DNA from: Cocleimonas flava
GTDB lineage: Bacteria; Pseudomonadota; Gammaproteobacteria; Thiotrichales; Thiotrichaceae
Assembly (NCBI RefSeq): GCF_004339015.1
Contig: NZ_SMFQ01000005.1
Span: 372,001-436,000, forward strand
Length of the DNA stretch: 64,000 nt
Direction: 5' to 3'
Shown here: one piece after another, positions 5,887 through 10,346 of the stretch
How positions within the stretch are numbered: position 1 is the stretch's first letter
Layout: the number at the start of each line of letters is the position of its first letter
The notes under the pieces: generated by a model
The model's input: the letters and a program-made list of their open reading frames with translations, nothing else
The model's database searches: none
Told to the model about the DNA's origin: nothing
Position numbers and translations under genes: made by a program

Positions 5887-7302
5887 ATGTCACAAATAAC
5901 AACACTAAGCCGCATAAGAAAAATATTCACAGCTAAGCCGCTATACATAATTTTCAGCGGACTATTTCTTAGTGCTTGTAGCGTTACTTCCCCAAAAATG
6001 AACGAGCCCCTGAAGGCTAAATCAAGTTCAGAATTATCAGCATTAGGTTCAGAATCAAAAAACCAACGATCTGATGAGCTTTCTTTGTTTATGGCATTTT
6101 CAGGTGGCGGAACCCGTTCTGCAGCATTGTCATACGGCGTTCTAAAAAAATTACGTGACACTAAAATCAACATCGGCAACAAACAACGCCGCTTACTGGA
6201 TGAAGTCGACATGATTTCATCGGTATCTGGAGGAAGTTTCACCTCAGCGTATTATGGCTTATTTGGTGATGGTATTTTTAAAGATTTTGAGAAGAAAGTC
6301 CTTAAGAGAAAAATCCAGACCGAATTACTCAATCTTTCATTATTTAGCCCAAAGTCCTGGATTCGTTTAGCGCCGGCGCTGTTTGAACGTAGCGATCTAG
6401 CCGCAGAATATTATCACCAGACAATTTTCAAAAAGAAACATTTTGGCGATATGCGCCCCGATGCTCCTTTTATTGTTATCAATGCGACAGACTTGTCATT
6501 GGGCCAAGGCTTTTCTTTTACTGGCTATCATTTCAGCTGGATCTGCTCAGATTTAAATAGCTATCCGATATCTCGTGCCGTTGCAGCGTCCTCAGCTGTA
6601 CCCGTGGTTTTCTCTCCTATCACTCTGGAGAATCACGCGGGTAGTTGCAAGTTTTCACCTATCGTCTGGGATGTTCAAAAGCGCAATAGAAACAAAGTGA
6701 AAAATAAGCAAAAGCGTTATAAAGATGCACTTAGGGTTAAAAACTACCGCGATAATAAAAAGTTAAAATACCTGCATTTAGTGGATGGTGGAGTCGCTGA
6801 TAACCTGGGCATACGCTCTATTCTGGATATCATTTCGTTCCATAACGACAGCATGTGGAGTGCGATGAAAACCTACGGCATGCAGAATACCAAGAAGATG
6901 GTTTTTATCAGCGTAAATGCCGCCAGCTTTCAAAACCCCATTATTGCGACCCGAAAGCGAGCGCCTTCAACGGTTGATGTGATTGATACCACCACCACAA
7001 TCCAATCCAATAAGTACAACACGGAGACTATTGACTTATTAACGAGCAAATTCCCTGTCTGGAAAAAACAGGTACAAACAGCGCGCTGTCGAGAAAAGCC
7101 CAGTAAAGACTGCGCCAATATAGAGTTCCAATTGATTGAAATTAACCTTGAAGACCTGCGACCCTCGGAACTCAAAGCATTAGGAATCGTTCCCACTGCT
7201 CTCGAGTTACCGAATAAAACCGTAGACCAACTAGAAGATGCTGGCATGAAATTAATGCAACGTTCGAAGAGCTTTCAAACATTTATCAATGGGTTTAAGT
7301 AA
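5887..7302 (+). CDS. patatin-like phospholipase lipoprotein
   Basis: The 471-residue protein starts with a lipoprotein signal: a hydrophobic segment and the lipobox LSAC with Cys31. The patatin domain has the oxyanion-hole loop GGGTRS (residues 73-78), the nucleophile serine in SSVSGGS (Ser114) and the catalytic aspartate in VDGGVADN (Asp300), so the Ser-Asp dyad is intact. Such enzymes are lipid acyl hydrolases; this one should be membrane-anchored on the periplasmic side. A 12-base sequence around the stop codon, GGGTTTAAGTAA, is repeated immediately after it. A copy of the C-run element follows in terminator-like orientation. Confidence 0.88.
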   Translation: MSQITTLSRIRKIFTAKPLYIIFSGLFLSACSVTSPKMNEPLKAKSSSELSALGSESKNQRSDELSLFMAFSGGGTRSAALSYGVLKKLRDTKINIGNKQRRLLDEVDMISSVSGGSFTSAYYGLFGDGIFKDFEKKVLKRKIQTELLNLSLFSPKSWIRLAPALFERSDLAAEYYHQTIFKKKHFGDMRPDAPFIVINATDLSLGQGFSFTGYHFSWICSDLNSYPISRAVAASSAVPVVFSPITLENHAGSCKFSPIVWDVQKRNRNKVKNKQKRYKDALRVKNYRDNKKLKYLHLVDGGVADNLGIRSILDIISFHNDSMWSAMKTYGMQNTKKMVFISVNAASFQNPIIATRKRAPSTVDVIDTTTTIQSNKYNTETIDLLTSKFPVWKKQVQTARCREKPSKDCANIEFQLIEINLEDLRPSELKALGIVPTALELPNKTVDQLEDAGMKLMQRSKSFQTFINGFK

Positions 7303-9661: not shown

Positions 9662-10282
9662 TTATTTCCATATATTCGTTGAAGGTTTACCTTCTAATTC
9701 TAGAACTGGACCTAGATCTTCTCCTCCATCATCCAATGACCTACAGCCTATCCCACATATCTCCCCCGGAGATAAACTTGGAGTAGACATACAATCAAGA
9801 ACACCAACTGGCTCTATAGTAGAATAGTAATCACAAATAGAGCCTTCATAAGGACCAGCACTTAAAATATTAATCGTTTGTGTTGGAGTAAGGCTATTTT
9901 CAAAGTGGTATGCCTGATAATTCTCCAAAGCTATTGGGGTATTAAAAGTAATAATAGGAGTATTTGCGAACCCTGCCTTTGCATCACTTACAAGCTTAAT
10001 TCCACTACCACCAAAGCCAAAAGCGCTGACTCCTATTAACATAACAAAAAACTTATTAGCATTTGAGCCTTTTTGTCGAGTAACTTTAAAAGCGACAACA
10101 AAAAGCAAAAGACTTAATACAATTAACATCGTACCACTTAAACTAGGAACTGCTGTAGGAGATGCAAGACTAAATGTGATACTGCCACCTCCAGTAGTAC
10201 CGGCTAAAACTGAGGACGTGGTTATTGTTGAAATTAAAAAAATCAAATGTAACTTATACAGTAATGCTGAAAATCTTCTCAT
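9662..10282 (-). CDS. midcut-by-XrtH-like exosortase substrate protein
   Basis: The 206-residue protein has an N-terminal signal peptide (hydrophobic 8-27, likely site after SSVLA-G). After a short Gly-rich region comes a sorting-signal-like tripartite block in the middle of the protein: VPSLSG (45-50), a hydrophobic span (51-67) and a basic patch (KVTRQKG). This resembles IPTL/PEP-CTERM signals recognised by exosortase H, but it is followed by a second hydrophobic span (about 77-92) and a C-terminal domain of about 110 residues containing CDYYS, DCMS and EICGIGCRS cysteines. That layout is what I recall of the family named midcut-by-XrtH. No exosortase gene is in the window. Ribosome binding site AGGGA precedes the ATG. 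Confidence 0.6.
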   Translation of the reverse strand: MRRFSALLYKLHLIFLISTITTSSVLAGTTGGGSITFSLASPTAVPSLSGTMLIVLSLLLFVVAFKVTRQKGSNANKFFVMLIGVSAFGFGGSGIKLVSDAKAGFANTPIITFNTPIALENYQAYHFENSLTPTQTINILSAGPYEGSICDYYSTIEPVGVLDCMSTPSLSPGEICGIGCRSLDDGGEDLGPVLELEGKPSTNIWK

Positions 10283-10346
10283 ATTTATTTCCCTTTTTTA
10301 TACTTGCTATTAAAACTCCGTTATTTTTTATTTTTATTTTGATACG

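Follow-up and report, generated by a model that had tools for sequence, protein, structure and literature searches.

Processing in the middle of a protein by members of the exosortase/archaeosortase superfamily is already known. According to excerpts of PMC7157517, archaeosortase A (ArtA) of Haloferax volcanii cuts its substrate HVO_0405 at a central site, the lipid enzymes PssA and PssD are required, and the neighborhood of artA and pssA pointed to a lipid for this enzyme; the review PMC9263693 describes, in the portion concerned, a tripartite signal that may be C-terminal or lie elsewhere in the protein. The title of Craig 2011 ties N-acyl amino acid synthases to exosortase systems. Substrates of the IPTL-CTERM/exosortase H system (PF18203, TIGR04174, TIGR04177) carry an IPTLS- or VPSLS-type motif, a membrane span and a basic patch at their C-terminal end, and the family midcut_by_XrtH (NF033207) combines a signal peptide, an internal VP-T/S-LSG-type signal, a second span and a cysteine-containing C-terminal half with the presence of XrtH in the genome. 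The latter family is known by its name, and our literature search found no paper on it or on its role. To our knowledge, the acceptor to which bacterial exosortases attach their substrates is unsettled.

The window analyzed here is a stretch of 64,000 nucleotides of Cocleimonas flava (positions 372,001 to 436,000 of contig NZ_SMFQ01000005.1). On its minus strand, a gene of the midcut-by-XrtH type (positions 9662 to 10282; reading frame, translation and NCBIfam match) encodes a protein of 206 residues with an ATG start, and the sequence AGGGA, which resembles a ribosome-binding site, lies 7 nucleotides 5′ of the ATG (10290 to 10294, minus strand). By eye, residues 1 to 27 (10202 to 10282, minus) look like a signal peptide with a predicted cut between A27 and G28 (SSVLA/G). 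Residues 28 to 46 (10145 to 10201, minus), GTTGGGSITFSLASPTAVP, form the predicted short N-terminal product of 19 residues, delimited by alignment, AlphaFold and a pattern count; it contains the strand-like stretch GSITF and is followed by SLSG. The internal sorting signal, supported by profile matches and conservation, covers residues 45 to 71 (10070 to 10150, minus) and consists of VPSLSG (V45 to G50), a hydrophobic span at about residues 51 to 65 and the basic patch KVTRQK (K66 to K71), beyond which 135 residues remain. Conservation defines a second span at residues 77 to 103 (9974 to 10054, minus), whose hydrophobic core lies at about 78 to 94 and which ends in VSDAKA with a signal-peptidase-I-like site, A103/G104. 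The remaining 103 residues (104 to 206; 9665 to 9973, minus) form a C-terminal domain with four cysteines, recognized from alignment and AlphaFold and beta-rich in the model. The preliminary description had reported a sorting-signal-like motif in the middle of a secreted-type protein, followed by a second span and a cysteine-containing C-terminal domain. This layout was recovered, with the signal at residues 45 to 71 as stated there, on the minus strand, which that description did not specify, and the domain was cysteine-containing as described but counts 103 residues after A103 instead of 110.

The genes next to the midcut gene are presumably ilvD and a gene for an FAD-dependent oxidoreductase, as named by reading their translations. 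The GC content of three 500-base segments lying mostly on the midcut gene and its upstream side was 0.39, 0.37 and 0.31, and that of the next segment 0.32, compared to 0.40 to 0.48 in the remaining segments between positions 7000 and 13000. A promoter scan gave 6 promoter-like sites versus 4.6 (standard deviation, 2.2) in shuffled sequence, and a terminator scan gave zero terminator-like sites. Elsewhere in the window, positions 5887 to 7302 of the plus strand encode a protein of 471 residues with a lipobox-like start and motifs that look patatin-like (GGGTRSAALSYG and GxSxG).

When the protein was compared with 18950 NCBIfam models, the only match at E values up to 10 was midcut_by_XrtH (E 1.8e-10; 41.2 bits; residues 20 to 179 on positions 14 to 173 of the 175-position profile). 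The score lies just under the curated cut-off of 45 bits (39.7 bits in the genome search). Its only Pfam match was IPTL-CTERM (PF18203; residues 43 to 60) with 11.9 bits against a cut-off of 20.8, and the protein differs from this family in having its signal 135 residues before the end and not at the extreme C terminus. A chance or misframed reading frame was rejected on account of the intact minus-strand frame, the NCBIfam match, the eight related genes of the same genome and the plus strand, whose frame 1 showed many stops. As in NF033207, the motif and span stand in mid-protein behind a signal peptide, the latter recognized by inspection, and XrtH is encoded in the same genome. Since the NF033207 score is just below 45 bits and the PF18203 score is below its cut-off, we classify the protein by sequence as a sub-threshold relative of midcut_by_XrtH. 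The fit to this family that the preliminary description had suggested was thus borne out by the only NCBIfam match, with the qualification that the cut-off is missed, and the proposed profile search against exosortase-target models did not lead to an unrelated family. In its layout as described, the protein also resembles HVO_0405, in which a tripartite signal away from the C terminus is likewise processed in mid-protein (PMC7157517 and PMC9263693, in excerpts); HVO_0405 differs in being a Tat substrate with an archaeal PGF signal and a domain-fusion protein.

The genome carrying the window gene (4.49 Mb, 10 contigs) contains one match to XrtH (TIGR04177) with 180.4 bits against a cut-off of 86. 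Read by eye, this protein has Cys, Arg and His at the places that we take to be the exosortase active site. The xrtH gene is followed by a gene for the XrtH-associated protein (XrtH_assoc, NF041730; 175.7 bits, cut-off 35). A search of the genome with NF033207 gave 11 places: nine are midcut genes, and the remaining two are very long frames that end in an IPTL-CTERM signal. Four of the nine midcut genes exceeded the 45-bit cut-off, the window gene not being among them, and the eight further genes share the motif, the spans and the C-terminal half with it. For two of the midcut genes, the distance to xrtH is no more than about 7 kb. PF18203 exceeded its cut-off at four places, one of which is a midcut gene. 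Both an exosortase H gene and ordinary IPTL-CTERM proteins, which the preliminary description had proposed to look for, were therefore present, and its interpretation stands because the genome holds XrtH, the partner protein, IPTL-CTERM proteins and nine midcut genes. As a separate observation, two tandem midcut paralogues of this genome (L016:8811-9320 and L016:9356-9871) have no signal peptide; their N-terminal peptide and sorting motif follow directly behind the start Met.

The distribution of midcut genes and XrtH was compared in a class sample of 369 genomes and a family sample of 63 genomes, both of which include C. flava. In the class sample, over-cut-off midcut matches occurred in two genomes, C. 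flava and a gammaproteobacterium of another family (G015, the sole genome of its family in the sample), both among the 14 genomes with over-cut-off XrtH; in the family sample they occurred in 6 of 63 genomes, each of which belongs to the 36 that have XrtH over its cut-off. The hypergeometric p values, which ignore the kinship of these related genomes, were 0.0013 for the class and a weak 0.029 for the family. At E 0.001, NF033207 matches were found in 21 and XrtH matches in 30 of the 369 class genomes, with both in 14 of the 21. Among the seven genomes without an XrtH match (G009, G041, G049, G059, G248, G273, G304), the matches in G009, G041, G248 and G273 were larger secreted-looking proteins with a stretch resembling the C-terminal domain, and that in G304 was another membrane protein. 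Weak matches without an XrtH match also occurred in three family genomes (G372, G384, G392). G372 (97% complete) speaks against a strict dependence on XrtH, because its protein ends in an ordinary C-terminal VPTLSEW-type signal and XrtH was not found in this genome. In a tree of 42 rows, which cover part of all XrtH found and leave 21 of 38 forks open with the bootstrap unsettled, the XrtH proteins of the six midcut-containing family genomes fell into one clade of nine. The same clade held G370 and the second XrtH copies of G406 and G407, all without midcut, and XrtH of G015 lay outside it, so that a special XrtH clade existing only together with midcut was unsupported. In G015, five midcut genes stand in tandem (L063:6297-9765).

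For an analysis of conservation, 24 distinct full midcut proteins from seven genomes were aligned, five long tails being trimmed and IPTL-CTERM-only matches excluded. The proteins share 26 to 52% identity with the window protein, and fifteen rows are less than 50% identical to each other. Invariant residues were M1, P46 of the sorting motif, L56, A103 at the end of the second span and N129; at least 90% conservation was found for G50, L53, L59, L60, C150, C164 and C176. The loop between the spans carries a charge of +2 to +5 in every protein, and four cysteines follow A103 in 22 of the 24 and two in the other two. We infer that the first span would run from outside to inside, leaving the basic loop in the cytoplasm, and the second span back out. 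It might be argued that the mid-protein motif is a relic or a docking site that XrtH leaves uncut in an ordinary two-span membrane protein, as both curated scores of the window protein lie below their cut-offs and cleavage is predicted only. Such a protein would hardly be expected to belong to a set in which P46 is invariant and G50 nearly so, in which over-cut-off genes stand only alongside XrtH in both samples, and of which two members lie close to xrtH; we regard this explanation as quite improbable. The window protein is very likely a substrate of XrtH, with cleavage as a prediction.

The invariant A103 drew attention to a possible second cut. Alanine occupies position −1 in all 24 proteins, and position −3 is Ala in 17, Leu in 4 and Val in 3, so that each protein has the small −1 residue and the small or aliphatic −3 residue behind a hydrophobic stretch that are expected of a signal peptidase I site. 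Columns 49 and 57 likewise satisfy this loose rule throughout the alignment, but alanine is scarce or absent there; among the columns listed, column 103 alone has an invariant alanine. The fit in all proteins leads us to propose two internal cuts. The region preceding A103 (SGIKLVSDAKA), in turn, comprises about 11 residues including a lysine and is long for a signal peptide, and the conservation extends over the stretch KLxSDAxA and not merely over −3 and −1; together these features are untypical of a signal peptide and indicate that the conservation of A103 may have a different cause. They would suit a protein from which XrtH removes only the N-terminal peptide, both spans remaining as a membrane hairpin that displays the C-terminal domain and A103 being structural. 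That the −3/−1 rule holds in 24 of 24 proteins as divergent as 26 to 52% identity, with alanine invariant at −1, weighs against such a hairpin, which we consider possible but rather unlikely. A second cut by signal peptidase I after A103 is, from the sequences, about an even bet, and the invariant residue offers a one-residue handle on it. The match in G248 (profile positions 59 to 171) had suggested that the second span might correspond to the signal peptide at the start of ordinary secreted proteins. This idea was unsupported: among the matches listed for our own HMM against ordinary secreted proteins, the C-terminal domain alone aligned and the second span did not.

A gene for a PF04116-type fatty acid hydroxylase lies directly 3′ of 7 of the 24 midcut genes, on the same strand and at a distance of roughly 30 to 210 bases (L014 twice, L017, L125, L126, L128 and L129, L125 and L126 being closely orthologous to the L014 pair). 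The examined flanking DNA of the other 17 genes, three of which are on short contigs, contained no such neighbor, and the window gene belongs to these. In G387 a hydroxylase gene is located directly upstream of xrtH. Two hydroxylase copies tested reached 103 bits with PF04116 (cut-off 31), and the His clusters H107xxxH111, H120xxHH and H201xxHH were invariant in 8 aligned copies. Domain and His clusters resemble those of the ornithine-lipid hydroxylase OlsE (NF052566), the closest NCBIfam name, but the one copy tested scored 75 bits where the model requires 475 and is not OlsE by that model. Hydroxylases with at least 245 bits to an L014 copy, a threshold placed at a gap after the gap had been seen (next best, 169 bits), were found in 6 of the 63 family genomes, exactly the six with over-cut-off midcut; this overlap would arise in 1 of C(63,6) draws if the two were unrelated, but four of the other five genomes share the genus of C. 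flava. At E 1e-50 the hydroxylase superfamily is present in 164 of the 369 class genomes and is thus too common to serve as a rare marker; what is informative is only its adjacency and the close clade. Ornithine-lipid synthesis as a fixed partner was also rejected, since PF13444 was unmatched in G377, G378 and G387; a PF13444 frame of 587 to 618 residues is present in C. flava, G379 and G369.

In G015, four stand-alone genes encode proteins of 56 to 59 residues ("minis") that score 23.6 to 27.7 bits with NF033207, below the cut-off, and in which a signal peptide, judged by eye, is followed by 8 to 12 residues up to VP, a span and a basic end. Three of the four are followed by a hydroxylase gene on the same strand, in contrast to none of the eight full midcut genes of this genome. 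Because the hydroxylase adjoins the minis there and not the full genes, its association appears to be with the sorting half. Its position directly 3′ of seven midcut genes and three minis suggests that the acceptor, like that of archaeosortase A, is a lipid. The same order of substrate and hydroxylase recurs in two families far removed from each other and makes a hydroxylated lipid a candidate, although we rate this particular acceptor as doubtful. The literature search revealed no paper joining an exosortase with a fatty acid hydroxylase or sterol desaturase; in none of the papers listed did we find the invariant site at A103, the stand-alone minis or the pairing with a hydroxylase.

Three midcut paralogues of C. 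flava carry extra domains behind the C-terminal domain, namely, a Peptidase_S74 chaperone, DUF11 plus SpaA_4, and CAP. As these domains are usually extracytoplasmic, they fit an outside location of the C-terminal half. The paralogue with the intramolecular chaperone domain (L014:14034-14882) also occurs in G379 and G378. The C-terminal domain itself is remotely similar to repeats of large proteins that look secreted and are encoded in other class genomes; single stretches score 10 to 15 bits. AlphaFold modeled the window protein with a mean pLDDT of 63.5 and a pTM of 0.43, drawing a strand at residues 34 to 39 of the N-terminal peptide (block 31 to 40 at 60), and the paralogue L015:8087-8608 with a mean pLDDT of 69.3 and a pTM of 0.47, a strand at residues 30 to 36 (block 31 to 40 at 73) and a pLDDT of 80 to 89 from residue 111 onward. 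Since DSSP assigns a strand only where there is a partner, and every other strand lies in the C-terminal half, the peptide is probably drawn as an extra strand of that half, with modest model confidence and a deduced partner. Searches of the PDB for the fold of the C-terminal domain gave nothing at E 0.001 or Z 2 (best E, 1.3).

A strand-like pattern, written after the sequences had been seen, fits the N-terminal peptides of 24 of 24 midcut proteins versus none of the four minis. Its prevalence between families, and the existence of minis, three of four with a hydroxylase gene directly downstream, would also be understandable if the peptide of about 19 residues were the active molecule, a signal or surface peptide released or lipidated, with the C-terminal half as its chaperone or carrier. 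Given that the minis lack the midcut pattern and that three C-terminal halves bear further, usually secreted domains, which suggests that these halves have a function, we judge a peptide signal of this kind to be improbable.

The explanation that we favor as a whole, and hold to be reasonably probable, is that of an XrtH substrate precursor in which an internal sorting signal gives rise to a short peptide, probably attached to a lipid, and, as a product apart from it, a surface domain. The signal peptide would export the N terminus, the C-terminal domain would reach the periplasm or the surface with its cysteines as disulfides, and XrtH would cut near VP/SLSG. This would leave the peptide of about 19 residues; by analogy with archaeosortase A, its newly formed C terminus may then be joined to a lipid. 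Signal peptidase I would probably free the C-terminal domain by cutting after A103. By staying paired with this domain as an additional beta strand, the peptide may keep it at the membrane; such docking is a tentative suggestion that we would not expect to prove correct. The preliminary description had anticipated that cleavage in the middle would yield two products with different locations. The reading as an XrtH substrate was supported, but two products are too simple a count, because the N-terminal product would comprise only about 19 residues and the conserved site at A103 suggests that the chain is cut once more, ahead of the C-terminal domain. A broader scheme, which we put forward as speculative and improbable in its entirety, is that XrtH makes lipid-linked peptides whose acceptor lipid is tailored by the hydroxylase encoded directly behind the substrate; the minis would yield the bare lipopeptide, and in midcut proteins the strand of the lipopeptide would capture the released C-terminal domain. 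If true, this split-precursor anchoring would be a mode in which a covalent peptide anchor holds a surface domain that is bound non-covalently.

The C. flava genome also encodes two frames of 3687 and 2507 residues with terminal IPTL-CTERM signals (L020:4917-15977 and L021:4332-11852). A further secreted-looking protein with a C-terminal IPTL-CTERM signal (L019:7083-7595, contig C3, minus strand) contains a ubiquitin domain (PF00240, E 3.8e-25) in which 60 of 73 residues are identical to a PDB ubiquitin. At E 1e-6, such a ubiquitin protein was found in one of the 63 family genomes; it may be a ubiquitin of eukaryotic origin that is now exported to the surface.
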